Below are positions 2 to 61,574 of a DNA stretch of 64,000 nucleotides, piece after piece (the stretch's first letter is position 1; each line of letters begins with the position of its first letter). Source of the DNA: Owenia fusiformis. Its lineage: Eukaryota > Annelida > Polychaeta > Sabellida > Oweniidae. Where the stretch lies: assembly GCA_903813345.2 (NCBI GenBank), contig CAIIXF020000010.1, forward strand, positions 12,529,181 to 12,593,180, given 5' to 3'. Under the pieces are notes generated by a model. It saw nothing but the letters and a program-made list of their open reading frames with translations. It did not search any database and had not been told where the DNA came from. Position numbers and translations under genes: made by a program.

Positions 2-3000
2 CTCATGGGGATCAAATGGATTGATGAGCTACAGAAGTATTGTTATAAACGTGTCGAACATCCAGAGAAGGCTGTCTCTATGGAGTCCATACAGAGTGAC
101 AGGTCAAGCAAAAGTAATCGTTCCGCCCGGAACAGCACAAGTGAAACCTCGGAGAGTGTCAACATGAATGATATCCACGATTCAATGACACCCTCATATG
201 TTGCGGTCGATGAAGGACCATTGAATGATCCATTCTTTGATATGACTGTACGGGAACGTAAGACACATTGGGAGCACTATGACGCCCCACACTCCCCAAC
301 CTCCCCGATGTCTGTCCGCAGTGACATCTGGGACCTAACACCTGATAAATCCCACAAGGACTTTGAACAGTTCAATGAACCTGAATGGACTTTAAATGAT
401 AAGGAACTGGGAGGAGATGAGAATGAGGACTATGGCTATGTGATAACTGTATATAAAGCCTACTCTCCATCAAATATTGAACCACCCAGTCCTGATAGAA
501 AATCATTTCCAATGAAGGCTGCCTATGATAACCTTTCACCTATGACTGAAGCTGTTAAATTCAATAGCAATAAAGCAGTGGTTCCTTCTAAGATTCCTTT
601 ACCAAGCACTCAGATAATAGATGGCGATGCCTTACCCCACCTGGCTCTATCTAAGGAGCGATATTACTTCACTCTCGCCCAATCTCTCTGTAGACTCGCA
701 GATAACTTCTTCAAAGCAAAAAAATACAAAGTTGCAAATGACGTTTATGAGCGAACAGTTGGGTTATTTAAAGATTTCCCAAGAGATGAGGAAAGTTATA
801 CTCTGATGGCCAACACACTTAAAACAGTGGGAATCATCAAGTGTAAAACAGGGGACATTATAGGAGGCATGCACATGATGCAGCAAGCAATCCAGATATT
901 CCATCTTCTCCAAAGCGATGAATCAAAGGTGAACCTGGCGTCATCATGGTATGAACTCGGGAACACTTTCATAGAGGAGGAATGGACCCAAGATACCATT
1001 GTGGAGCATGTGATGAGGCAGCTAAATGAAGCAGTTGAAAATGAGGAGTCTGATGAGGCAAACCGTACAACATATGACAGTGATAGTGATACAGAATGTG
1101 ATGAGGACCAGTACGTTGTGGGAGCACTGGAGGCGAGGACATGCTACCAGAATGCAGTCGATACTCTCAAACAGATGCACATTGTAAACATAGAGCAGCG
1201 TGATGTACTAGCTAGATCTCTCACCCGTATGGGGAACTGTAACGCAATGGCTGGTGATTACGATTCGGCTCTGAGCAACTTCGAAGAAGCCCTCAGTCTG
1301 TTCAAGACAACTTATGGAGTCGATAACCTCAGTGAAAATGCAAACATCATGACAATGATGGGAGTTGTCTGCTTCCTGTTACGACAATACTCCAAGGCTG
1401 CCACCATGTACGAGGCAGCGATAATCATCTTGAAGAACCTCCAAGGAGTTGACGAACCAAAGTTTGACTATGCCTTCAACCTTGGTCTACAAGGGATCGC
1501 TTACTATGCAATGAGAAGCTATGACAAATGTGTGTCTTCATCCTTCCAGGCATTCGAGACATTCTCTTTGATCTACCATGATAAGTTGATGAGGCAGCCT
1601 CCCATCAAGCATTGGTTGATCTGCCAGAGTCTTTACGTCCTGGGACATTCCTATGGGAAGCTGGATCTATATGAGAAGGCTCTCTACTACCTAGGTCTGG
1701 CCAAGACAATGTTAGGCAGGATCAAGGCACCAAGCAATGTTCAGGTTAGTAACAAAATTAAGAAAACAATGGCATTTTAAAAAACAAAAATGACATTTGA
1801 ACCATACAGTCTTGAGAAAGTCCATAGATCTTGTAACTATTTCTTCTGTGATATTATACTAACTATTGCCTTCAAAACCACTGTGTGTTGAATGGTCTAT
1901 AATCAAATTTGTTCTCTATTGACATGTGGTTCCCGGAGAGGGTTAAAAACTGTTTCATGTAGACAGATTCCTTACAGAGGCGTTTCATCTGACACATTTT
2001 ACTGTGCAACATATTAATAGAAACCAGAAAATAAAATGTCAGTTAATACTATTACATAAATTCAGTATAAAATCTGTGTTTCAGGTTGTCCAGATCATTA
2101 AGGCACTGGCTGACAACTATTCTGCCACGGAGAAGTATGAAGAGGCTCTCCAACACTACAACGAGGCCCTTGAAATAGTAGATCGTGACACCACTCACGG
2201 ACCACTCAGAGTTCTCCAAAATCAGCTCCTCAATAAAGTAGCGAATGTCCATGTTTCGATGAAGAATTATTCCAATGCGGCATCTTTTCTCGAACAAGCA
2301 TTGAATACGCAGAAAGATGTGGAAGCTGATATTAAAGATGACATGTGTGAATTGTTAGAACAGTTGGGATCTGTGTACATGATGACATGTGAAATAGATA
2401 AAGCCATTGATTGCTTTGTAGACTGTTTGGACCAGAACCAAGAAATCAATGGAGTTCACAGTTTCGAAATGGCTTCCGTATGTGGTAACCTAGCAACATT
2501 GTACCATATAAAGGCATGCATGGCAGAAACGGATGACATCGAGGGATATGTCCGATTGGCTGAGACGTACTATAGAGATGGCATGCGTTTGGAGACCAAT
2601 GCAACTGTTTGCGTGAGATATGCTAACTTCCTGTACCATCAGGGCCTAGAGGGTGATGCAGCTCTTACCCTGGAACCCGTCCTCCACCCACGACGCACCA
2701 GATCTTCTATCGTGATGGTAGAGGATGTCGATATGGTCCTGAGTGGGCTTGAGCAAGTTATCCTACCAGACATGTTAGAGAAGGAGATAGAAGAACATGG
2801 TGAGATTACTATCCCAGCCAGTCTCTATGCCAAATACCTGGCTGTACTCTGCTACAAGCAGCTCAAGTTAATGTCTGATGCCGAGGCCATCGTCACCGCT
2901 ATGATAAAAGATGCCAATGAAGCAAACACACATATCTTCTACTCAGTGCTAGGGTACGCATTAATGGAAATGGGTACATTTGATGCGGCTGCTAAAAATT

Positions 3001-3599
3001 TCGATATAGCTGCCAACATGTTAGACTCAATGGATGCAAAGCTTGCCAGAGAGAATGCTTCCATGTGCCTTGCAACACATCTCTATGACACATCCAGCCA
3101 AGGTCTACAAAACGTCTATGAGTATGCTAAGCGAGCTCAGAGAAAAGGTACCCTACCTCGGATTATTGTACCCACTAAATATAAGACTGAATCAGAGAGA
3201 ATCTCTCCTGAAAGTGGCTCAAACTCTCAATCTTTCTCCTCATCCATTTACAGCAGGGACCATTACTATAGTAACGGAACTGACACTTACTCCCAGAATC
3301 GTTACCCTAGTAACGATAATGAGACATTTTCAAGGAATCGTTTCACTAATGACAAAAGTGACACCTATTCCAGTCGTGATACTTACTCTCGGGACACTTT
3401 CACAAATAATGGGAACGAGTCTCAATTGGACAATGATAACAGAGTAACAGACCGCAACAGGAATGAGAGTTTTGGGAGTGATAGATCATCAAGGAGTAGT
3501 ATAGGGGATGAGCCTATAGCTTGGTCCCCTAGACCTTCACCCTCAAGGTCTCCTGCACACACACGCTTCAACTATAGTTATGGGGGACCCTACCATTGA
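2..3599 (+). CDS. Tetratricopeptide-repeat (TPR) protein, 5' partial
   Basis: Two exons are visible, 2-1744 and 2085-3599, joined in phase 0 across a 340-bp intron with a GT donor (CAG/GTTAGT) and a TTTCAG acceptor. About 1,085 residues are visible. The frame is open to the left edge, so the Met at position 5 need not be the true start. Residues 1-210 are acidic and Ser/Pro-rich without repeats. From about residue 215 a long series of degenerate 34-residue TPR helices follows (for example around DYDSALSNFEEALSLF and KYEEALQHYNEALEIVD) and continues through both exons to about residue 960. The last 130 residues are low complexity, rich in Ser, Tyr, Asn, Asp and Arg. TPR arrays form superhelical protein-binding scaffolds; the spacing recalls kinesin-light-chain or nephrocystin-like proteins, but I recognise no orthologue. 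No signal peptide or membrane segment is seen. It is probably an intracellular scaffold. Confidence 0.85.
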
Positions 3600-4372
3600 A
3601 AGGACTCTATCCTATCACCTTTAATTATATCTCTAGGACCCCACCACTATAACGATACCATAACTATCACTATAACGACCTATCTAATGAGAGGACCCTA
3701 CCATATCACTGAGAAGGGTAATTTTGTCACCAAATTTGGGAGATCCTTTTGAATTGTGGGCAATTCTTTTAGTGAATCTTGGTAATTCTATTAGCAAATG
3801 CGGGTGATTCTGTCAGTGAATGTGGGTCATTCTGTTAGTGAATTCCAACGATTCTGTTCATGTGAGGGTCATCATACACATAGTAATAGGGAACCCATGC
3901 CACTCTGGTTATAGCAGTATAAAACTCATTAATTTGTATATTTAGTACATACTGTATTTTAGTTCGACAGAGTCTGATTAGATGGTGCTATTGTATAATA
4001 ATGAAGAACAAATACATCTTGTGTAAACATTTTTGCCTTTTTAATTAATATTCATTTCAAAATCCCGTCCTAAGATAAACTGATTTCAGACACTGCGTTG
4101 ATTTATTGATGACTCTTCCAAAAATTCTATAATTTTTCAAATTTTTGTGTTCAAATCAAGACTCTTAGATCATCCTTATAATCCCCATTTTTACAGCTTT
4201 ATACAATAGTCTACTTAAACATCTCACACATTGAGTCAGTACCCACAATAGACAGTTTGTACTTACATATTACTATATTAAGGTAGTACTCACACCTTAG
4301 AGCAGCTTTTGGACAAGAACTTGCATAGAATTAAGAATTTTTTAGTGGTTGGGTAAATATATTAAAGTGTGC
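3600..4372 (+). other. 3' flank of the TPR gene, probable 3' UTR
   Basis: There is no open frame here. Short runs of a degenerate phrase (tgtgggt/attctgttagtgaat) repeat around 3765-3860. The nearest AATAAA hexamers on this strand are at 4791-4796 and 4845-4850, beyond a repeat-like segment, so the transcript end is uncertain. Confidence 0.4.
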
Positions 4373-4640
4373 GCCTGACCCGGCTACGTATAGCACAGAG
4401 TTTATACTGGAGGATTAGACTAGTTCATTTTTTATATGTGTGTGAAAGCTTTCTCTTATTTGCGTTTTTTCGTTTAGTACGGTTTTGTTATAATTGCCGA
4501 GGTCATATAACCGGGATAAAACAATGATTATCGTTGACTGCCCACACACAAAACATACGTTGAGTGAACAGTGTTATTACAAACAACAGGCTTTAGAATA
4601 CAAAGCGTAGTGTGATAATAAGCTGCACACTACCACTGCT
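4373..4640. repeat. Diverged dispersed segment, sister to about 59840-60100
   Basis: The phrase GGCTACGTATA, then GTTTA, GGATTAGA and ATTTTTTAT occur in the same order and spacing here and at about 59840-59905. Both stretches later share a CACACTACCAC word. This looks like two old copies of one repeat family of unknown type. No coding content is seen. Confidence 0.35.
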
Positions 4641-5385
4641 GCATGTACATATTACTAATTTACTAGGGCTCCCAAAGAGTGGATAGGGAGGTTGTGTTCG
4701 TCACTTTTAAATTTTACATTTCAAAATTGTCATTTTACATGTCATAATTTGTTGGTTTCATTCGTTTAGCCAATCAAAACATTGTAAAACAATAAATTGT
4801 CTGTTACGTACAATCAATTTTGTTCAGTTTTGATTAGTTGTCAGAATAAAGTTACGTTCATCTGAATCCATGTATCAAAACAAAAATCCTATTTTCACTT
4901 CAAAATACTTCAGTGAGATGAAGGCTCGGAATTGTCACATGCAATAACTTATTGTCGTATTCGTTATTTTATCTTCTCGATAGTAGCATTTAGTCGCACA
5001 TTTGATGCCAGGTCACCTTGTCGCGTACCTCTTGGGGAACCCCACATTTATGTGTGTACTCATGGAAGTAAATTCCCCGGTGTAGCCGAGAGCCACAAAC
5101 TTTTCAACAGGTTCGAAATGACCAATTTCTCTCATATATACTCTAAATATTTTATTATTTAGCACCTACAAAGTATTGCTAATAACCATATGTAATTTCA
5201 ATAAGGAAACTTATCTGGCTACATATAAATTCAATAACAACACTAGCTGTTCTCTCAACACGTCCTGGCTTACCTTGTAGTGACAAACCCTGGATTTTCG
5301 CTATTTATAGTTTATCAACACCTGGACGCATGCGCATTTTATACTTTATCGGGCACTTTAATGTCCTTCAAATGATTAAAGTCTG
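4641..5385. other. Gene-free interval
   Basis: AT-rich sequence with candidate poly(A) hexamers for the TPR gene at 4791 and 4845. Open frames are short and show no domain or splice support. Confidence 0.4.
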
Positions 5386-19500: not shown

Positions 19501-22275
19501 CCCCGTTGTTGACTATTGGTTAGTCTAAGGTGTTCTCATTGACATGATTCTGTCCTACATTTTACACAAACATATTTCAATCTGTATATTTCACAACCCA
19601 AATATAGCTATTGCTATCCCCTACTAACAGATGTCCATCATTATCAGTCACCAAACACGTAGGTAGATACAGTCCATCTGATCCTGTTAGGAGAAATCTG
19701 ATGAACTTGCCATCTGGACTCAGCAAGTGAACCCTGTTGTTGAAGAAGTCAGCCACTATGATATTGTTAGCTGTATCAGTGCATAGACCCTTGGGACAGT
19801 TCAGTTGGTTCTGTCCATTTTCGCATGGCCCATATCTGAACAGCTCTTTTCCATCTCTAGTCAAACCTACCACGCAGTTTTCTAGCATGTAAGACACAAT
19901 TACCACATCATGACTGTTCACAGCTAAATAAACTGGTTCACTGAAACTTTGTGACTTGGTCAGGATTCTACCAGTAGCACTTTCAACATGGCAGACAGCC
20001 TTTGTACTCCTGTCATATGTAACAAGTTCACCTCTAGAGTTGACTGCGATCTCCGTATAGCTTTTCAATGTTGGTGTCTTTATCTTTCTACTGTGCATAC
20101 ATTCCTGGTTGTATATACTGACTGTATCAGTTCCACTGGTAAGATATATCTCATTACCTTTAGTAGTGACATTATAAAAACCAACACCAAAAGTACCCTT
20201 CAAAGTAAGATCCTTGTTGTAGACTTTTGCTAGCCCACCAGAACATGTAGATATAGCTTCATTTTTGCTAGTTACCGCTATATCCCAAATTTGGGCATTT
20301 TGTCTTACTTTTCTTACTATTGTTGGCTTTGGTATTTTGCGATTCATAGCTCTCAGAATGTTAATGTCCACTTTTCCAAACACTATTTTATCATCAAGCA
20401 CTTCACCTCTCTGTATTTTGAATGTAATGTTATTGTCAAAGTCAGAGTCTTTAGGATTGGACCATTCTTTGGATTTTGAAATGATGTCTTGAGCAATGTT
20501 AGCAAGCTGAGTGTCATTTCCATGTTGTTTTAATGCAAATAACTGGCTCATTGCACTCTCAGTGATGGCCTTCTGCATTTGGAGATGTGCCAGATGAGCT
20601 TCAGCTTGTTTATCACATATGGCTCTTTTCTCTGCAACTAGATTAATTTCCATTGTGTATTTCTTCCAGATTGCTTGGATAGCAGTGTTCATATCATTGT
20701 TCAGTTCATTTGTGACATCATCTGCTTCTTGTTCTATTTTATTTTTCTTGGTGTGAATATTCTGTATTGATTGTTCATAGCTCGCTATCAATTTGCTACC
20801 TTTTGTGAGCAGTTCATCAATGAGTTTAATATTGTCCTTCGCAGCTTTATAAATGTCGACACATTTATGGCCAGAATGGTTGATCACGTAACAAGTCGCA
20901 CAGAGAGCACATTGGTCCACTTGACAGTATGTCTCGAGTGGATTGGTCTTGTGTGTATCACAATATACTACTCGCTGTTGTACAGCCTTAAGTATGTTCT
21001 GTTTATCTTGAGTCTTATCAGCTGTAACGTCAAGCACTGTATGGCCAACATGGAATTTTGTGTGATATCGATCACAGTCCTTACAGAATAGTTTGTTGCA
21101 TTGGATGCATTTGCTCTTAGCATCTATTTCAATATGATCACTCTCTTTACATGGTGTACACTGGGGTTTTTCTCCAATAACATCCATAGATTGAAGTAGA
21201 TCTACTATTGAACTAGTGGTAAAGTTGACCTTAAATTTTGCCACTCCCCCTGTGGGTACTATTGTGTGTACTTGTCTACATTCTGGGCAGTATAGGGTCA
21301 GTTCCCAACCTCGTTTCTTCTTTTCCAGCTTATCCAGGCACTTGCAACAATATGTGTGCATACATGGTAGTGTCCTAGGGTCTGTCAGTGTCTCATAACA
21401 CACCTTACATTTCAATGTCTCTTTAACGTGTTCCTCCATTGCCGTAGCCATTTTAGAATATCACATTTTAAACATGTGACTAAATAAATAGTTAACAAAA
21501 AGAACATACAACGGTATTTTTTCACATACTCTTTATATGATAAGTTACTGATTAACTTATTGTAAAAAATGTATGTTTGGTAAAGATAGAATGAATATTA
21601 TTTCTACTTGACAAGGTTTTTTATTTATCTATTTCAGAACCTTTTTCAAAGTCGTATATTTTAAATCCAATAACTATCATTTATAAATTCACCGGTTGCT
21701 ATATTCAAGACAAAAGATAATACAGTGAAACCTGTAGAGTGGAACACCTCTGTAAGTGGAACACTTCCGAGTCCCAAGGCTAACTGACTTAAAATGTGAA
21801 ACAAACTTTTATAAATGGAACACCTCCCAAGTAGAAAACAATTTAGAGGAACCAAATGTGTTCCATTTAGACAGGTTTCACTGTAATATGATTTGTATTT
21901 TGCATTTTAACATGTATCACTGTCTGACATTGTGTGATTTAGATTGCATCTATATTTGTTTTTGGATTTTGAGCAAACTTCATCCAGCTTGAAATAGTTA
22001 ACTCGTATTTTGAAGCAGCTACCTAATTATATAAAGCTCTATATGTATGTTCTATACATGTAAAGTATACAAATGAAATCTTATGGAATTGTATCTATGC
22101 AAATGAGATGTTTCATAAAATACCTTTGCACATAATTTGAATATAATTTAAGTTTGATTTCTTGATTCTGTTTCAGGCATTGGTTGTAACAGACGAAGAT
22201 ATCCGTCGTCAAGAACGTCGTGTTGTTGATGCAAGGAGAAAGCTAGAGTCGATTATGCAGGGCATGGACATGTGA
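13540..22275 (+). CDS. MBD2/3: Methyl-CpG-binding domain protein MBD2/3
   Basis: Six coding exons join in frame: 13540-13652, 16748-16905, 17444-17586, 17937-18027, 18868-19022 and 22177-22275, giving 252 residues. Exons 1-2 encode the methyl-CpG-binding domain (GLPSGWVREEVVRKSGLSAG, DVYYYSPDG, then RSKPQLARLVG). Exon 3 holds the MBD2/3 signature LPIRQTASIFKQPVT. Exon 4 gives LFWEKRLQGLNASD. Exons 5-6 match the C-terminal MBD2/3 region, with TGQQATKALMDKNPGV and the helix VTDEDIRRQERRVVDARRKL, which in MBD2 pairs with GATAD2A/p66 in a coiled coil. The family recruits the NuRD deacetylase/remodelling complex to methylated DNA in the nucleus. ATG at 13540 is preferred because the MBD follows directly; the frame upstream lacks homology. 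Length is near that of MBD3, but the acidic tail of vertebrate MBD3 is absent. Introns 1 and 5 carry insertions and a nested gene. Confidence 0.95.
13821..15145. mobile_element. hAT-like foldback element, 1,325 bp, nearly perfect arms
   Basis: The ends are CACAGGGGCTTGTCTCGAGG and its reverse complement. An identical 8-bp target duplication, CCTCGAAC, lies at 13813-13820 and 15146-15153, as expected for hAT transposition. The left arm (13821 to about 14328) and right arm (about 14650-15145) are close to 500 bp each and differ at only a few positions by eye. The loop of about 320 bp holds repeated GCGCATGCGCA words. No transposase is present. The near-identity of the arms suggests a recent insertion or ongoing conversion between arms. 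It lies in intron 1 of the MBD gene. Confidence 0.9.
15733..16378 (+). mobile_element. 5'-truncated LINE with poly(A) tail
   Basis: A 13-bp target duplication, ATTATAAAACAAT, lies at 15720-15732 and 16379-16391. The insert ends in an A-run of about 30 (16350-16378) after an AATAAA. The frame 15732-16166 encodes the C-terminal end of a non-LTR reverse-transcriptase protein: LRVGFLLKSHKYAHNFPG, then CQCGKP and EHFFLHCNLH, the Cys/His knuckle (CxC...HxxxHC type) that ends many CR1/jockey-like ORF2 proteins. Everything upstream is lost, as is typical of incomplete target-primed reverse transcription. It lies in intron 1 of the MBD gene, in sense orientation. Confidence 0.9.
18353..18532. repeat. 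ATTAC/ATT microsatellite
   Basis: Mixed ATTAC and ATT units (attactattacattac...) run for about 180 bp in intron 4 of the MBD gene. The plus-strand frame over it is an artefact of the repeat. Confidence 0.95.
19577..21451 (-). CDS. TRIM-like RING/B-box/coiled-coil protein, intronless
   Basis: A single uninterrupted 624-residue frame starts at ATG 21451. Residues 15-58 form a C3HC4 RING finger (C15, C18, C30, H32, C35, C38, C55, C58). Two B-box-like zinc modules follow: about 95-140 (CTPCKE..., CIQCNKLFCKDC) and about 163-200 (CDTHKTNPLETYC, CALCATCYVINHSGHKC). A coiled coil runs from about 205 to 335. Residues 380-624 form a beta-propeller-like region with NHL-type strands (GLCTDTANNIIVADFFNNRV, CLVTDNDGHLLVGDSNS). 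This is the order of TRIM E3 ubiquitin ligases, closest in plan to the TRIM2/3/56/71 kind; no precise orthologue is claimed. The predicted role is cytoplasmic E3 ligase, with the propeller binding substrate or RNA. The gene lies wholly in intron 5 of the MBD gene on the opposite strand. The lack of introns suggests a retrocopy-derived or single-exon family member. TTTATT at 19311-19316 gives a candidate AATAAA on its strand. Confidence 0.92.
   Translation of the reverse strand: MATAMEEHVKETLKCKVCYETLTDPRTLPCMHTYCCKCLDKLEKKKRGWELTLYCPECRQVHTIVPTGGVAKFKVNFTTSSIVDLLQSMDVIGEKPQCTPCKESDHIEIDAKSKCIQCNKLFCKDCDRYHTKFHVGHTVLDVTADKTQDKQNILKAVQQRVVYCDTHKTNPLETYCQVDQCALCATCYVINHSGHKCVDIYKAAKDNIKLIDELLTKGSKLIASYEQSIQNIHTKKNKIEQEADDVTNELNNDMNTAIQAIWKKYTMEINLVAEKRAICDKQAEAHLAHLQMQKAITESAMSQLFALKQHGNDTQLANIAQDIISKSKEWSNPKDSDFDNNITFKIQRGEVLDDKIVFGKVDINILRAMNRKIPKPTIVRKVRQNAQIWDIAVTSKNEAISTCSGGLAKVYNKDLTLKGTFGVGFYNVTTKGNEIYLTSGTDTVSIYNQECMHSRKIKTPTLKSYTEIAVNSRGELVTYDRSTKAVCHVESATGRILTKSQSFSEPVYLAVNSHDVVIVSYMLENCVVGLTRDGKELFRYGPCENGQNQLNCPKGLCTDTANNIIVADFFNNRVHLLSPDGKFIRFLLTGSDGLYLPTCLVTDNDGHLLVGDSNSYIWVVKYTD
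21723..21883. mobile_element. Pogo-like MITE, copy 1
   Basis: The ends are CAGTGAAACCTGT and its reverse complement, with TA on both sides (21721-21722, 21884-21885). The inside is built from the word TGGAACACCTC in both orientations. The ends resemble pogo/Tigger-type termini. The same family occurs at 23528, 29430, 33122 and 39357. Located in intron 5 of the MBD gene, upstream of the TRIM-like gene. Confidence 0.8.
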
Positions 22276-29075: not shown

Positions 29076-29429
29076 AGTAACCACATCAACATTATGTTGA
29101 CATAAATTGTCTCAATAATTTCAAATCCTGTCTGAGCCTGGAGTGTGTTCTATGCGTCATCCTCTATATCAAGTATATGGAAAGAGCACAAAGACCATGG
29201 ATCATTGTCTCCACTAAAGGTCAGTTGGCAGATAATATTCACATGAGGATGTTCATGTCTCATTTTTAACTCTACCCCTTTTAACAGATAGCAGAGTTTG
29301 ACTAATGTGTCGTGAGCAGCACTGGCCATAAATAAAAGAAATGACGCACAAAATAAAATCTATGACGTCCAATCTTAGCTATAATGGAATGTATAATTTG
29401 GTGAAAATCTCCTCAATATACATAATATA

Positions 29430-29570
29430 CAGTAAAACCTGTCTTAGTAGAATACTTTTGGTTTCTCTAAAAAGTGTTCTACTTGGGAGGTGTTCCATTT
29501 TTAGTGGTTCATTTAATATTAAGTCAGTTGGTCTTGGGACTCTGAAAAGTGTAGAATGTCATGATGGAAA
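29430..29570. mobile_element. Pogo-like MITE, copy 3, right end lost
   Basis: TA then CAGTAAAACCTGTCTTAG at the left; inside are GGGAGGTGTTCCATTT and TTAAGTCAGTTGG, matching (inverted) the copy at 21723. No clear right terminus remains. Confidence 0.6.
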
Positions 29571-33485: not shown

Positions 33486-34116
33486 GAACATCATAGAATA
33501 ATTTGTATATTTGGTACTCAACATGCTGCCTTTAGAACTTTTCAATTTGTTCTGTCCAGTTGTGGTATTTGATTAAAAGACTGCGCTTCAAAGGAAACTT
33601 TCAAAGGTCAAGCTTCAGCTTTATCCTGATTACAATATATCTTGCTCGTCTTACAATTAACTCTGAGTACTATATTACTATAGCATTTCTACAGACTTCA
33701 AGAGTTCAAGTCACTGATATTTTATCCCTGATTAGAAGTTAAACTAAAAATTAGATTGATTGTTTTGCATTCCCATAACAATAAATAAATAACATTTCAT
33801 GTGATTAGGATTTGAATTAATGATCTCATCTATAAATACAACCTTGTATTTTCTGACTTGATTCCTTTTGGAATAATTAAAGCCATAAGGGTAAATCATA
33901 AAACTACTGACAATAGTGCGAAATCATTCTTGCTACAATAGCTAGCCTGAAGACTTTGCTATTAAAGTCTCAGTCCTCTTCTTCTAAGAAATTAAATAAG
34001 CTATGAGAATATTAAGGAAGGAGTAGTTGAAGGATTTTTGTTTGTGCATGATGTCATTGTTGAAGTATTTTTGTAAAAGGTCTAATTAAAGTAACCAGAT
34101 GAAATATTCTACTTGG

Positions 34117-35710
34117 CATTCCTTAATGCCCATACTTATCCAATTCCTTTATGACCAAAGTACTGTCTAATTAATGTCCTTGTAACTCTTGCTTAGATGA
34201 GCTAACGTGACATAACTTTTATGCACTATGTTCTTCATTATCACCATTTGTATTGCCAAGCATTCCTTAATGCCCATACTTATCCAATTCCTTTATGACC
34301 AAAGTACTGTCTAATTAATGTCCTTGTAACTCTTACTAAGATGAGCTAACGTGACATAACTTTTATGCACTATGTTCTTCATTATCACCATTTGTATCGC
34401 CAAGCATTCCTTAATGCCCATACTTATCCAATTCCTTTATGACCAAAGTACTGTCTAATTAATGTCCTTGTAACTCTTGCTAAGATGAGCTAACGTGACA
34501 TAACTTTTATGCACTATGTTCTTCATTATCACCATTTGTATTGCCAAGCATTCCTTAATGCACATACTTATCCAATTACTTTATGACCAAAGTACTGTCT
34601 AATTAATGTCCTTGTAACTCTTGCTAAGATGAGCTAACGTGACATAACTTTTATGCACTATGTTCTTCATTATCACCATTTGTATTGCCAAGCATTCCTT
34701 TATGCCCGTACTTATCCAATTCCTTCATGACCAAAGTACTGTCTAATAAATGTCCTTGTAACTCTTGCTAAGATCAGCTAACGTGACATAACTTTTATGC
34801 ACTATGTTCTTCATTATCACCATTTGTATTGCCAAGCATTCCTTAATACCCATACCTATCCAATTCCTTTATAACCAAAGTACTGTCTAATTAATGTCCT
34901 TGTAACTCTTGCTAAGATGAGCTAACATGACATAACTTTTATGCACTATGTTCTTCATTATCACCATTTGTATTGCCAAGCATTCCTTAATGCCCATACT
35001 TATCCAATTCCTTGGTGACCAATGCAAAGTACTGTCTAATTAATGTCCTTGTAACTCTTGCTAAGATGAGCTAACGTGACATAACTTTTATGTACTATGT
35101 TCTTTATTATCACCATTTGTATTGCCAAGCATTCCTTAATGCCCATACTTATCCAATTCCTTGGTGACCAATGCAAAGTACTGTCTAATTAATGTCCTTG
35201 TAACTCTTGCTAAGATGAGCTAACGTGACATAACTTTTATGCACTATGTTCTTCATTATCACCATTTGTATTGCCAAGGATTCCTTAATGCCCGTACTTA
35301 TCCAATTCCTTCATGACCAAAGTACTGTCTAATAAATGTCCTTGTAACTTTTGCTAAGATGAGCTAACGTGACATAACTTTTATGCACTATGTTCTTCAT
35401 TATCACCATTTGTATTGCCAAGCATTCCTTAATGCCCGTACTTATCCAATTCCTTCATGACCAAAGTACTGTCTAATAAATGTCCTTGTAACTCTTGCTA
35501 AGATCAGCTAACGTGACATAACTTTTATGCACTATGTTCTTCATTATCACCATTTGTATTGCCAAGCATTCCTTAATGCCCGTACTTATCCAATTCCTTC
35601 ATGACCAAAGTACTGTCTAATAAATGTCCTTGTAACTTTTGCTAAGATGAGCTAACGTGACATAACTTTTATGCACTATGTTCTTCATTATTACCATTTG
35701 TTTAACCAAG
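34117..35710. repeat. 144-bp satellite array, 11 copies
   Basis: The word CATTCCTTAATG (or its variants) recurs at 34117, 34261, 34405, 34549, 34693, 34837, 34981, 35130, 35279, 35423 and 35567. The period is 144 bp, except for two adjacent 149-bp copies (34981, 35130) that carry GGTGACCAATGCAAAG instead of TATGACCAAAG. A second variant (CCCGTACTTATCC, TTCATGACC, AATAAATGTCC) marks copies at 34693, 35279, 35423 and 35567, so variants are patterned rather than random. No coding frame was seen. Confidence 0.95.
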
Positions 35711-49960: not shown

Positions 49961-50034
49961 CCAAGAAAGTAAAGTTTTGTATTTGCTTTTTCTGTTGCCC
50001 CCCCCCCTTCTCCCCGTCCCCAGCATAAAACATT

Positions 50035-50570
50035 GAATCAATGGAGAGAATATGAATATGAGGGGATTGATTAACACAGGGGAGGGAATATGAATTTGGG
50101 GGATTGATTACATAGAAGATGGAATATGAATATGGGGAGATTGGTTAACATAGGAGATGGAATATGAATATGGGGAGATTGGTTAAAACAGCGGGAGGGA
50201 ATATGAATAGGGGGATTGATTAATACAGGGGAGGGAATATGAATATGGGGGATTGGTTAAAACAGGGGAGGGAATATGAATAGGGGAATTAATTAATACA
50301 AGGGATGGAATATGAAAATGAGAGATTGATTATCACAGGGGAGGAAATATGAATATGGGCGGATTGATTAACACTGGGGAGGGAATATGAATATGGGCGG
50401 ATTGATTAACACAGGGGAGGGAATATGAATATGGGCGGATTGATTAACACAGGGGAGGGAATATGAATATGGGCGGATTGATTAACACAGGGAAGGGAAT
50501 ATGAATAGGGGTATTTATTAATACAGGGGATGGAATATGAATATGGGTGGATTGATTAACACATAGACCT
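50035..50570. repeat. 38-bp minisatellite
   Basis: Units of about 38 bp carry GGGAATATGAATATGGG, then GGATTGATTAACACAGG, about 14 times. Central copies (50350-50500) are almost identical; flanking ones vary in the G-run and in the length of the ATATGG word. Confidence 0.9.
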
Positions 50571-54563: not shown

Positions 54564-54748
54564 TTCATTTCTGTTGATGTCATCCATGCAGACAATTGCA
54601 CCCTGGCAATTGCAAACCTTTAACCTTAATTCCAGTACAGTACAATGATTGAATATCTCTAAACTAGTGGATCTCTATTATTCTGTGTTTCTGACCAATG
54701 CTTCAATCTTCCACTTAACATGATTACAACTTTAACCAATATAACAAT
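54564..54748. repeat. Duplicated segment, copy A (left part)
   Basis: It matches 60292-60462 almost base for base, apart from a 14-bp local duplication of CCCTGGCAATTGCA type. It is cut at 54748 by the foldback element and resumes at 59497. Confidence 0.9.
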
Positions 54749-57700
54749 TAGGCCATCAGCCTGGGGGGTTGGTCGGTATCAAATTAGGGGAATAATCGCC
54801 ATAGTGATTTTTGGGAAGGTTAAGACCTCTAGAGTAGGAAAATATGTGATAGCATTGTAACAGTTGTAGCTAAATGGGTGTTATCGCCCATTTTTCAAAA
54901 TGGCCGCCAGTGTATGTGTCACAATACAAGAGTGGGTATATCTAAGCACACTGAGATGCAAAAACTGTGATTTTAGGACCTATGTCTGGGTTTTAGGGGT
55001 CAAGGATTTCATTTATGTCTAAATCTAAGTCATCAAACAATTTTTTCTCATAGAAATCCAAGATGGCCGCCAAAATGGGTGCAAAAACGGATATGTAACT
55101 ACTGTTAATGCTCAGGAATCACTTAAGAACAGTGATTTTGGAGCCCATGTCTACGTTTTAGGGGTCAAGGATTTGATTTATGTCTAAATCTGAGTCATCA
55201 AATAATTACTTTTCATAGAAATCCAAGATGGCCACCAAAATGGATGCCAAATCGAATATGTAACTATTAATTTGAGCTCCAAGAACAGTTAAAAACAGTG
55301 ATTTTGGAGACCATATCTAGGTTTTAAGGGTCAAGGATTTGACTTATGTCTAAATCTAAGTCATCAAACAATTACTTTAAATAAAAATTCCAAGATGGCC
55401 ACCAAAATGGGTGCCAAAATGAATATTCAACTATTGATTTAAGCTCAAAGAATAGTTAAGAACAGTGATTTTGGAGCACCCATGTTTAAACGTAAACCAT
55501 GATACCATGGTATACCATGGTTTACCATGGTCTATCATGATTGGCAATGAAATTACCATCAACTCTGACCATGGTGGCAATGATGTTTTTTTGGTCAATT
55601 TTTGACCATGGTATACCATGGTATATCATGTTATACCATGTTTCATGGTATTTCATGTCCAAAGTTTGCCATCAAATACCATGGTATTTCATTGCCATGT
55701 TCCTGACCATCATTTACTATGGTATTACCATGGTATATCATGGTTGATTGCATTTCATGGCATTTCATTGTAAGATGTGACAATCAAATACCATGGTATT
55801 TCAATGCCATGTTCCTGACCATAATTTACCATGGTATATCATGGTTGATGGCATTTCATTATAAGATGTGACAACCAAATACCATGGTCATACCATGGTA
55901 TTTTATTGCCATGTTCCTGACCATCATTTACCATTGTATATCATGGTTGATGGTATTTCATAGTACAATTTGACAATCAAATGTCATGGTCATACCATGA
56001 TATTTTATTGTTATGTACCTGACCATCATTTACCATGGTATTACCATTGTATATCATGGTTGATGACATTTCATGGCATTTCATTGTACCATGTGACAAT
56101 CAATTACCATGGTCATACCATGTCATTTCATTGCCAAAATCATAACTCTCATTTATCATGGTTTTATCATTGCATTTCATGGTTGGTGGTATTTCATGGC
56201 ATTTTATTGTCAAACCTGACCATCAAATACTATGGTCATACCATGGTATTTCATTGCCATAATCATAACTATCATTTATCATGGCATATCATTGCATTTC
56301 ATGGTTGATTGTATTTCATAGCATTTCATTGTCAAACCTGACCATCAAATACCATGGTTATACCATGGTATTCCATTGCTAAAAAGAACTCTACAAGAGT
56401 CTCAAGTCTAAAATTGGTCAGAGTTGAAATGGATCATGAAATGCAATGAAATACCACGTTTAACCATGAAATGCAATGAAATACAATGATTGATCATGAT
56501 ATGCAATGAAATGCAATGGTCTTTCTTGCAATGCAGTGAAATACAATGAAAGACCATGTTCAAAAAGTACTTTTTACATGAAATATCTTTATTAATAAAT
56601 GTTAATTAGATATCCAAATTATTATAATTAGTGATTCTGATATTCATCAAAATCACAACTTTATATACTTTTGTTCCTTTATTTAATAAATTAATTTCTA
56701 TTATGAATAATTAAGTTAATAACCCTAGAAACAATTTTTTTTTGTTAAACAAATATGCTTTACTTTTATTTGACTGTTGTCTGTTAAATAGGAGATCAAC
56801 TTGATATTTTGTAAGTCAAACCTCCAGTCTTCGATTAAACATCTTGACTGTACTTCATTGCATTTGATGGTTTGCATCCATGAAATACTGCAAAATATCA
56901 GTATTTTTAAATGCAAAATTTCAAGTATAGTTTCCACAGTATACCAAGGTAGATCATGATAATTAAATGGTTCCATTGCATATCATGGTTAAATGTCTAG
57001 ACCATGATATCACTGCATTTGATGGTATTTGACCATGAAATACTGTGAAACGGTGGTATTTTTTAGATACAAAATTACATGTTAATTGACCATGGTATAC
57101 CATGGTATATCATGATCGTTAAATGGCACCATTGCATTTCATGGTCAGGAGCGTTTTTTTAACATGGAGTTTCCCATTGAAAAAATACTGCCGTTTCACA
57201 GTATTTCATGGTCAGAAACCATCAAATGCAATGATATCATGGTCAAGAAACCATCAAATGCAATGATATCATGGCCGAGAACTTGACCATGATATCATTG
57301 CATTTGATGGTTTCTGACCATGAAATACTGCGAAACGGCAGTATTTTTTCAATGGAAAACTCCATGTTAAAAACGCACTGTTAACAATGAAATGCAATGG
57401 TGCCATTTAACGTTCATGATCGGCCATGGTATTACCATGGTATTTCATTGCATTTCATGGCCATATACCATGGTATACCATGGTCATACCATGGTATACC
57501 ATGGTATGGCCATGGTCCATTTCAACATGGACATGTCTGCGTTTTAGTGGTCAAGGATTTCATTTATGTCTAAATCTGAGTCATCGAATAATTGCTTTTC
57601 ATAGAAATCCAAGATGGTCACCAAAAACGGTGCCAATAACCAGTAAATATTGATTTAAGCTCAAAGAACAGTTTATAACAGTAATTTGAGACCATGTCAA

Positions 57701-59496
57701 GATTTTTGGTGTCAAGAATTTCAGTTATGTCTAAAACTATAACTAATTCCTTTATTTGGATCCAAGATGGCTTCCATCATTGCTGCCGAAGTGAAAATAA
57801 GATTTATTATCCAAAAATATAGAGGAGTTAGAACATTAATTTTTGATATTTTAAGTTTGTGGGGTCAATGATTTTAATTTTGTCTTTAATAAAATCAACA
57901 AATATTTTATTTATATGGATATCTAAGATGGCCTCCAAAATGAATTCATATCCATTTAACCACATAGATCACCAAACAATCTGTGATTAATATCAGAATT
58001 CAAGATGGATGCCAAAGTGTTAATATTATAAAAGGTCAAATAAGAACAAACAATTACATGAAGATTTGCGAAATAAAATCTTATGATCATCACATTAGCA
58101 ATATTACTGTAATTTGCCTTCCTTTCCCTTAGTTTTGTGGTGGCTCAGTATCATAAACATTGACTATAGAAAGAAGTAGACTGCCCATGGGAAGAAGTAG
58201 ATTATTGGATGGAGAAGATCAAGCACAAGAAATTCCTCAAAGACAAGTGTATGATAAACCAGAAAGAGTTTGATGAAGATAAACATTTTAGTCAGTCCTC
58301 AAAATCGTGACTCTGGAGCCATTTTGGTGGTCGGTCATCTTGGATTCAAAATAAAGGAATTGTTTTATGACTTAATTATAGACAAAATAGTTATTCTTGG
58401 CCTCTTAAACCTGGACATGGTCTCCAAAATCACTGTCCTTAACTGTTCTTTGAGCTTAGATCAATAGTTACATATTCATTTCAGCACCCATTTTGGTGGC
58501 CATCTTGGATTTCTATAAAAAGTAATTATTATTTGATTACTTAGATTTAGACATAAATAAAATCCTTGGCCCCTACAAAATAGACAGAGTCTCCAAAATT
58601 ACTGTTCTTAACTGTTCTTTTAGCTTCAATCAATAGTTACATATTCATTTTGGCATCCATTTTGGTGGCCATCTTGGATTTCTATAAAAGTAATTGTTTG
58701 ATGACTTAGATTTAGACATAAATGGAATCTTTGACCCTTAAAACCAAGACATGATCTCCAAAATCACTGTTCTTTGAGCTTAAATCAATAGTTACATATT
58801 CATTTTGGCACCCATTTTGGCGGCCATCTTGTATTTCTATGAAAAGGTAATTATTTGATGACTCCAATTTAGACATAAATGAAATCCTTGACTCTAGAAC
58901 TGTGGCATGATCTCCAAAATCACTGTTCTTAACTCTCATTCGAGCTTAAATCCATGGTTACATACTGGCAATCGTTTTGGCATCCATTTTGGTGGCCATC
59001 TTGTATTTCTATGAAAAGTTTATTATTTGATGACTCTGATTTAGACATAAATGAGATCCTTGACTCGAGAACTCAGTGACATGATCTCCCAAATCACTGT
59101 TCTTAACTGTTCTTTGAGCTTAAATCAATGGTTACATACCGGTATTCGTTTTGGCACCCATTTTGGTGGCCATCTTGGATTTCTATAAGAAGTAATTCCT
59201 TGATGACTTAGATTTTGGCATAAATGAAATCCTTGACCCCTAAAACCTCAATATAGGCCCTAAAATCACAGTTTCTGCATCTCAGTGTGCTTAGATATAC
59301 CCACTCTTATATTGTAACACATGCACCGGCGGCCATTTTGAAAAATGGGTGATAACACCCATTTAGCTACAACTGTGGCAATGCTATCACATAGTTTCTT
59401 ACTCTAGAGGTCTTAACCTTCCCGAAAATCACTATGGCGATTATTCCCCTGATTTGATACCGATAACCTAAATTTTGGGGTGAAGCTGATGGCCTA
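54749..59496. mobile_element. Giant foldback element, 4,748 bp, with empty site known
   Basis: The ends are TAGGCCATCAGC and its reverse complement. A 3-bp AAT lies on each side (54746-54748, 59497-59499). The neighbouring duplicate has a single AAT at 60460-60462, that is, an unfilled site. Apart from a later insertion, the arms are about 1.2 kb each: 54749-55484 plus 57531 to about 57960 on the left, and about 58270-59496 on the right. They are built from roughly 150-bp units containing CCAAGATGGCCACCAAAATG, ACAGTGATTTTGGAG and GGGGTCAAGGATTT, inverted in the right arm. No transposase was seen. A 3-bp duplication would fit PIF/Harbinger-like or other 3-bp families, but the terminus is not one I can assign. 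Confidence 0.85.
55485..57530. mobile_element. 2-kb CCATGG-rich palindromic array nested in the foldback
   Basis: It interrupts one arm unit of the host element: the phrase before it ends CACCCATGT and the phrase after it resumes ACATGTCTGCGTTTTAG, as in intact units. Ends read CATGTTTAAACG and TTTCAACATG, a short inverted pair. The inside is a dense series of self-complementary words (ACCATGGTATACCATGGT, TACCATGGTA, TTTCATTGCCATG) in units of about 60-130 bp, with opposite orientation in the left and right halves and an AT-rich centre at about 56580-56930. Frames over it (rich in HGH, PWY) are translations of the repeat. Confidence 0.8.
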
Positions 59497-59833
59497 AATG
59501 ATGATGAAGCTCAATGTAAAATACAACCATTCAAGATTAGATTTGGCTGGAGTGGATTTGATTAGATGAGATTGTCTTTGCTAACAGTATATCTGGATGC
59601 AGCCTTAATTAGTTATAAATATAATATTGACCCAAATATTCAATAAAAAGCCAAATTTTCAAAGTAGAGCTCACATTTATTTTTGCATAATAGTGAATGG
59701 AAGGATTTTTCATCATTTTGATCTTCATATATGAAAATCTTAAAAATCTATTAAATGTTGATACTTTGTAATAAATTCCATCAATAAAACAGAAGTATAT
59801 GAATGCTTGTATATGAATTTATTATTACTTAAA
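59497..59833. repeat. Duplicated segment, copy A (right part)
   Basis: From GATGATGAAGCTCAATG to TTATTATTACTTAA it matches 60463-61093 with few substitutions, except that copy B has a hAT-type MITE inserted after GGCTGGAGTGG. Confidence 0.9.
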
Positions 59834-60291: not shown

Positions 60292-61093
60292 TTCATTTCT
60301 GTTGATGTCATCCATGCAGACAATTGCAAACCTTTAACCTTAATTCCAGTACAGTACAATGATTGAATATCTCTAAACTAGTGGATCTCTATTATTCTGT
60401 GTTTCTGACCAATGCTTCAATCTTCCACTTAACATGATTACAACTTTAACCAATATAACAATGATGATGAAGCTCAATGTAAAATACAACCGTTCAAGAT
60501 TAGATTTGGCTGGAGTGGCAGGGGCGGATCTGGGAACCAACAAGGGGGGGCAAATCTTAGGTCAGAGAAAAACATTTTGGGCCCCTATAACTGAAAAGTG
60601 GGCTCAAATTTTGAAATTCTGGGGCCTATTTTCTTCAAAATTTGGCCTGAAATTAAAAAATAAGGCCTTACAAGGCCCAGTAATGACCAAAAAGGCCTAC
60701 TCTTTGGGGCATTAAGGCCTTATTTTGCCCAAAATTTTTTTGGGCCCAATTTTTTTGGTGGGACCACCCAAGGGGGGGTTGCAGGCTCCCCCCCCCCTCA
60801 GATCCGCCAGTGAGTGGATTTGATTAGATGAGATTGTCTTTGCTTACAGTATATCTGGATGCAGCCTTAATTAGTTATAAATATTATATTGACCCAAATA
60901 TTCAATAAAAAGCAAAATTTTCAAAGTAGAGTTCACATTTATTTTTGCATAATAGTGAATGAAAGGATTTTTCATCATTTTGATCTTCATATATGAAAAT
61001 CTTAAAAATCTATTAAATGTTGATACTTTGTAATTAATTCCATCAATAAAACAGAAGTATATAAATGCTTGTATATGAATTAATTATTACTTA
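60292..61093. repeat. Duplicated segment, copy B
   Basis: The tandem partner of 54564-54748 plus 59497-59833. It lacks the 4.75-kb foldback and so preserves the empty target site (AAT, 60460-60462). It carries its own insertion at 60519-60811, for which copy A (about 59542-59552) is the empty site. Confidence 0.9.
60519..60811. mobile_element. hAT-type MITE, 293 bp
   Basis: It begins CAGGGGCGGATCTG and ends CAGATCCGCCAGT, an inverted pair with a hAT-like terminus. GAGTGG is present on both sides (60513-60518, 60812-60817); two further bases expected of an 8-bp duplication do not match. Copy A reads GGCTGGAGTGGATTTG uninterrupted, which proves the insertion. The inside is G-run and GGCC rich. 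Confidence 0.85.
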
Positions 61094-61574
61094 AGTGGAT
61101 TATTTACTAAGTGTATATATTTCCTATACATTATTTACATTATTTCAATAAAGATGCACAATTGCCTTTTGAAGGTACAAGACATATCCAATATGTGTAT
61201 TATACAGCTGACAGTATCTCCTTAACTCTCAATTCAAATATATGATATTGTATTCTGAATACTATTGAAAATATACATATCCATTCACTCTAGGATAATA
61301 CAAGACATCCAAATATAAAGTTTGAATGTTTTATGGCTTAATTTATGTGCATAATGATTAAAGTATGCAAATATAAGAATTTTGTTGAAACATTAATTTG
61401 AAAGTACTATACAATTATAGAAAAGAAATATGCACAGAGTGTACATACTATTTTCTTTGCAAACATAATACATCCGCATACATTATGCTAATAAAAAACA
61501 TTTATTACAAAATTCATTTTAACGTTTATTCAAAAAATATTTTATCAATCATATAAATTGAATATATAAAAGTG

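Follow-up and report, generated by a model that had tools for sequence, protein, structure and literature searches.

The 64-kb stretch of DNA analysed here (contig C10, positions 12529181-12593180 of the Owenia fusiformis assembly; hereafter the window) contains an insert of 4,748 bp (54749-59496, + strand), which lies within one of several copies of a local repeat and was described in a first-pass annotation as a giant foldback element. This locus raises the question of what kind of transposon gave rise to the insert, whether its large size is a property of the element itself, and with which known group of elements it can be affiliated. The insert was compared with paralogous sites and with the genome as a whole (498 Mb in 525 contigs).

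Ends, flanks and empty sites of the insert

The boundaries of the insert, which are based upon its ends and flanks and upon the alignment of four paralogous sites, are exactly those given in the first-pass annotation. Pattern searches placed a 12-bp terminus, TAGGCCATCAGC, at its left end (54749-54760, + strand) and the reverse complement of this sequence at its right end (59485-59496, - strand), and within the window this 12-mer occurs once on each strand, just at these two positions. The insert is flanked by a target duplication of AAT on the left (54746-54748, + strand) and on the right (59497-59499, + strand). A second copy of the local repeat (copy B; 60292-61094, + strand) is without the foldback and reads AACAATGATGATG at positions 60457-60469, where the unoccupied AAT (60460-60462) is found precisely as annotated. 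A genome search with copy B led to two more copies of this repeat, C10:12603259-12603753 and C10:12615173-12615667 (L063 and L064), and when these were aligned with copy B and with the joined flanks of the occupied copy (copy A), both were continuous through the site and the foldback was absent from them.

The first-pass annotation had allowed that the empty site might prove to be a deletion in copy B. Because L063 and L064 are also empty, what is seen is an insertion in copy A, and the case made from the empty site is strengthened. It is very unlikely that copy B at one time carried the foldback and lost it by deletion or precise excision: a precise excision would leave the same sequence in copy B and may apply to one copy, but two further paralogues are equally empty, even if these two, being identical in sequence, may reflect a single recent duplication or an assembly effect and may count as one. 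With three empty copies of one local repeat the empty site is unusually clean. Empty paralogues were also observed for two other members of the family that is described below, namely two for L046, which are at 21721-21885 and 29427-29552 of the window (80-86% alike), and one for L048, which is present in L021 (79% alike).

Some other features of this region were also noted. Copy B alone, among the four copies of the local repeat, carries an insertion of about 0.3 kb (at about 60519-60811 of the window), which has the ends CAGGGGCGGATC...GATCCGCCAGTG with GAGTGG on either side and many similar copies (83-87%) in the genome. Tandem arrays are present at 34116-35701 and 50032-50563 of the window, their unit lengths being about 144 bp and about 37 bp as judged from self-alignment offsets.

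A nested element within a foldback of ordinary size

The 4,748 bp of the insert consist of a foldback of 2,695 bp, a nested second mobile element of 2,051 bp and a 2-bp repeat, AC, which is found on either side of the latter. The nested element (CCATGTTTAAACG...CATTTCAACATGG; 55480-57530, + strand) is rich in CCATGG and contains internal inverted repeats within its 2.05 kb. In a comparison of 21 members of the foldback family, the corresponding middle part of the window copy, about 2 kb in length, had no match in any of the 20 others, and three sister foldbacks were continuous across its insertion point. After removal of the insert, the foldback was 95-96% identical to L046, L044, and L055 over 2.4-2.5 kb. 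When the region 55490-57530 (2,041 bases) was used as a query against the genome, at least 30 other full-length matches (94-98%) were obtained among the best 40 of 178 candidates scored. Six of these other copies were read together with their flanks; they have ends of their own and lie in unrelated sequence, and three of the six are flanked by TA on either side, the flanks of the other three being non-matching.

The reading that the insert is a single foldback of 4.7 kb, with the CCATGG-rich middle as its own part, draws on the enclosure of all 4,748 bp by the termini and the AAT flanks, but it is refuted, and retains hardly any probability, in view of the absence of this middle from 20 other members, its independent full-length copies with their own ends at 30 or more other places, and the uninterrupted insertion points in three sisters. 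The term "giant" hence does not apply: about 2.05 kb of the insert is an independent high-copy element in the left arm, and the foldback itself is of a size that is ordinary for its family. A pitfall is thereby indicated, in that oversize members can be ordinary ones with other elements inside them, as is seen for the window copy, for L062 and for a member of 11.8 kb.

The structure of the foldback is as follows. The part to the left of the nested insert (54749-55479, + strand) belongs to the left arm and, by tandem-repeat analysis, contains 3.1 copies of a unit of about 165 bp starting at 54963. The remainder (57531-59496, + strand) comprises the end of the left arm, the spacer and the right arm, with 5.5 copies of a 169-bp unit at about 58328-59239. 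Once the nested insert is removed, positions 25-1141 of the foldback pair with positions 1519-2662 (79.6% over 1,159 columns), giving arms of about 1.1 kb and, between them, about 0.4 kb of spacer. The arm length of about 1.2 kb that was annotated earlier is nearly right for this form. It does not hold for the window as it stands, where the left arm is broken off after 731 bp, arms of about 0.7 kb (85%) being collinear. Without its insert the foldback is an imperfect palindrome over almost its entire length, and its identity to the reverse complement of itself was 76.9%, as against 45-46% in two shuffled controls. Identity between the two ends is limited to the outer 12 bp; the adjoining stretch of about 12 bp or more is different on the two sides (left CTGGGGGG, right TTCACCCC), and the arms start after it. 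Due to this divergence inside the 12 bp, left and right ends can be distinguished from each other. The number of the approximately 165-bp units in the arms is variable, with as many as 9.8 of them in one arm of L047. The element thus has the long inverted arms of the foldback class, which are tandemly repetitive inside and vary in length between copies, and its mobility is indicated by target duplications and empty sites.

Distribution and diversity of the foldback family

With up to 2 mismatches allowed, 120 matches in the genome were obtained for a 22-base pattern of the left end, 136 for a 23-base pattern of the right end and likewise 136 for a 21-base variant of the left end; the reversed control gave 0 in each case. 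Pairing with the listed right ends gave at least 68 pairs among 100 listed left ends (of 120), a number that is a lower bound as the lists used for pairing held 100 each of the 120, 136 and 136 matches. When one abutting pair (2 bp) and two pairs spanning 11.4 and 19.5 kb were set aside, the remaining 65 paired members ranged from 2,213 to 5,319 bp with nested inserts counted in (median 2,907), and the window copy was the third longest; sequence was read for 20 of these approximately 65 members, and the sizes of the remainder are from end positions alone. The family is dispersed and has more than 100 well-delimited ends in the genome; it is well documented, and its kind is an old one. No description of it was seen among the titles and abstracts listed for foldbacks with 3-bp duplications or for foldbacks in related animals, a survey that lay outside Repbase and would not preclude a published description; a phage search and Rfam also gave no result.

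The first-pass annotation had proposed that other copies be sought and their flanking 3 bp compared, and had regarded different ends or a different duplication length as evidence against its boundaries. The other members share the same ends, and an exact 3-bp duplication was present in 23 of the 25 members for which both outer flanks were read; none of the 25 had a flank match of 4-8 bp. When left and right flanks were paired at random in 2,000 trials, the mean number of matches was 3.0 and the maximum was 11, as compared with the 23 observed. The duplicated sequences are varied and A/T-rich (AAT, ATT, TAT, ATA, TAA, TTA, AAA, GCT, CTT, GAT, CAT and ACA), and all 23 end in A or T. The two exceptions are L048 and L055, and the empty paralogue of L048 is consistent with a CAT duplication from which one base has been lost. 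Outside the 25 are L042, L058, L059, L061, L074, L075 and the abutting pair L072/L073, for which a second end or an outer flank was lacking; L059 and L061 have a single family end each. For 171 pairs of copies, the median identity in the outer 215 bp was 95.8% at the left end and 97.2% at the right, with L060 and L062 excluded from the calculation.

Several members differ from this general pattern. L071 (C10:20675568-20675724) is only 157 bp in length and has both ends, with ATA on either side, and no arms. L073 (C8:30209640-30209780) and L072 are arranged head to tail with one TA common to both at the junction and no duplication between them, and are perhaps a product of recombination or a dimer. 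In L059 (C358:42900-50900), a long open frame is present at about 2750-4800 beside the lone right family end; 500 bases of this locus are N. By eye this frame resembles what we take to be a Mab21/cGAS-like protein.

Other large members were also studied. The middle of L062 (5.5 kb) had no Pfam family, and its part from 1700 to about 3975 (C10:18949499 onwards) represents a third mobile family, which lies nested within the foldback, with eight other places in the genome matching about 2.28 kb of it at 96-99%. Three very long members have matching duplications, viz. those of 11.8 kb (ATA), 25.3 kb (TTA) and 19.5 kb (TAA). The first of these was read whole, and 5,172 bp of it is an LTR element (L076 947-6118, within C10:23174650-23184600) whose two LTRs, each of 1,162 bp, are 100% identical and which contains open frames that by eye are gag-like and RNase-H-like. 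Subtraction of this element leaves about 6.6 kb, part of which has no match in any other member, so that the excess length is not fully accounted for by nesting. Outside the LTR element no Pfam family was found in six frames of L076 6100-9951 and L077 1-1400 or in one frame of L076 630-950. The member of 25.3 kb (C12:8130985-8156274) was sampled in 11 stretches of 850 bp, amounting to 9.35 kb, and that of 19.5 kb (C10:20111992-20131530) in 8 such stretches, amounting to 6.8 kb. Among ten open frames that were selected from these samples were one reverse transcriptase (L086) and two with weak matches below the cut-off (L087 and L092), and nothing transposase-like was seen in any of the ten. The 25.3-kb member is thus enlarged by reverse-transcriptase sequence at least, and the unread parts of this and the 19.5-kb member could contain a transposase.

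Proposed mode of transposition and affiliation of the family

The element in the window is very probably a foldback DNA transposon, 2,695 bp in length and non-autonomous, which would move by a cut-and-paste mechanism using a transposase supplied from elsewhere. In favour of this are the three other copies of the local repeat in which the site is empty, the empty paralogues of L046 and L048, the duplications in 23 of 25 members and the shared ends; counting against it are the lack of a coding partner among the sequences searched and the two of 25 members without a 3-bp match. The palindrome predates the spread of the family, because the arms of one copy are about 80% alike whereas different copies are about 96-97% alike near their ends. 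The foldback entered copy A of the local repeat at AAT and thereby produced the 3-bp duplication there, just as the same ends have produced 3-bp duplications at many other sites in the genome, and a 2.05-kb element of another family later entered the left arm. The transposase may recognise the 12-bp ends and cut with a stagger of 3 bases, and the arm units of about 165 bp may serve as additional putative binding sites, by analogy with Galileo, in which the transposase DNA-binding domain is reported to have bound inside the tandemly repeated part of the long arms as well as at about 70 bp from the end (PMC3688188). The armless L071 hints that these units may be dispensable, unless this single case is the result of a deletion after insertion.

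Among foldbacks described previously, Tetris of Drosophila virilis is similar in having long arms with a varying number of tandem units (about 220 bp), a non-coding middle and no reported autonomous partner, whereas its duplications are 8-10 bp in contrast to 3 bp here, and three structurally complete copies are reported as compared with more than 100 ends in the present family (PMC4079207). Galileo, a member of the P superfamily from Drosophila, also has long repetitive arms with unequal numbers of units in the two arms of one copy, and the binding sites inside its tandem units are Galileo's data, being applied here by analogy; it differs in its 7-bp duplications, its known coding copies and its ends (PMC3573991, PMC3688188). 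Tm1, a Mutator/foldback element of root-knot nematodes, resembles this family in its composite arms of varying length, its small derivatives and the presence of other elements nested in its members, but its duplications are mostly of 9 bp and members with a putative transposase are known (PMC3169594). Turmoil-1, a Harbinger element of C. elegans, has inverted repeats of 760 bp and belongs to a superfamily that usually makes 3-bp duplications; it is unlike the present element in its length (5,024 bp) and in encoding a Harbinger transposase, and arm arrays are not among the features given for it in the text available (PMC2572040). The duplications of FB4 are reported to be 9-10 bp. The present family makes 3-bp duplications (23 of 25 members), whereas the foldbacks FB4, Tetris, Galileo and Tm1 are described as making duplications of 7-10 bp, and an affiliation with the Mutator- and P-type foldbacks (FB, Tetris, Tm1, Galileo) is disfavoured by this difference in length.

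The sequences of the duplications and the termini bear upon other groups. Tc4 of C. elegans is a foldback over nearly its whole length with a 3-bp duplication, and in these respects it is similar; its target is TNA, a sequence found in just 3 of the 23 duplications here. For PIF/Harbinger elements, in which the target duplication is TWA, the 3-bp length fits, and TAA or TTA is present in just 3 of 23. CACTA/EnSpm elements have a CACTA-like terminus, whereas the ends of this family are TAGGCSATCAGC, and TAGGC is not a CACTA terminus. By these criteria, the sequences of the duplications speak against PIF/Harbinger and Tc4-like elements, and the terminus speaks against CACTA.

The earlier description of the foldback as non-autonomous is borne out in that a six-frame Pfam scan of the window element (E up to 0.1) revealed no family. 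An autonomous partner with the same terminus, for which the first-pass annotation had advised a search, was sought in the long members, by Pfam scans and with transposase models across the genome (PF02992, PF07592, PF13359 and PF18758), and was not found in this search, which is not exhaustive. Three-bp duplications are characteristic of the superfamilies Academ, Chapaev3 and CACTA/EnSpm, and Zator, which is linked to the ISAzo13-type transposase (PF07592), is a further candidate. We consider it likely that the family belongs to a known superfamily of this kind (e.g., Academ, Chapaev3, CACTA/EnSpm or Zator) of which the coding member was missed. The duplication of 3 bp is in accordance with this, as Zator makes duplications of the same length (PMC10045372), and two of the long members are known from samples alone. 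Against it are the TAGGC terminus, as noted for CACTA, and the results with the transposase models. None of the 174 listed matches to PF13359, PF18758 and PF02992 was within 15 kb of the 138 family ends listed, these being the ends on contigs other than six small ones, with right ends paired to a listed left end counted through their partner. For DDE_Tnp_4 (PF13359) this applies to the best 150 of 269 candidates scored, and for Transposase_21 (PF02992) to all 14 genome matches. The Zator-like PF07592 had 0 matches in the genome, though the control genomes likewise had 0. The alternative that this family, with its TA...TA ends and its A/T-rich 3-bp duplications of free sequence, is moved by a transposase of an undescribed superfamily, for which the arm arrays would form the binding platform, appears unlikely. 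As a separate observation, Transposase_21 matched with equal score at nine places with an open frame of 608 aa (e.g., C1:24242559, C6:14011940 and C9:391472), which probably represent a recently active family of the CACTA type.
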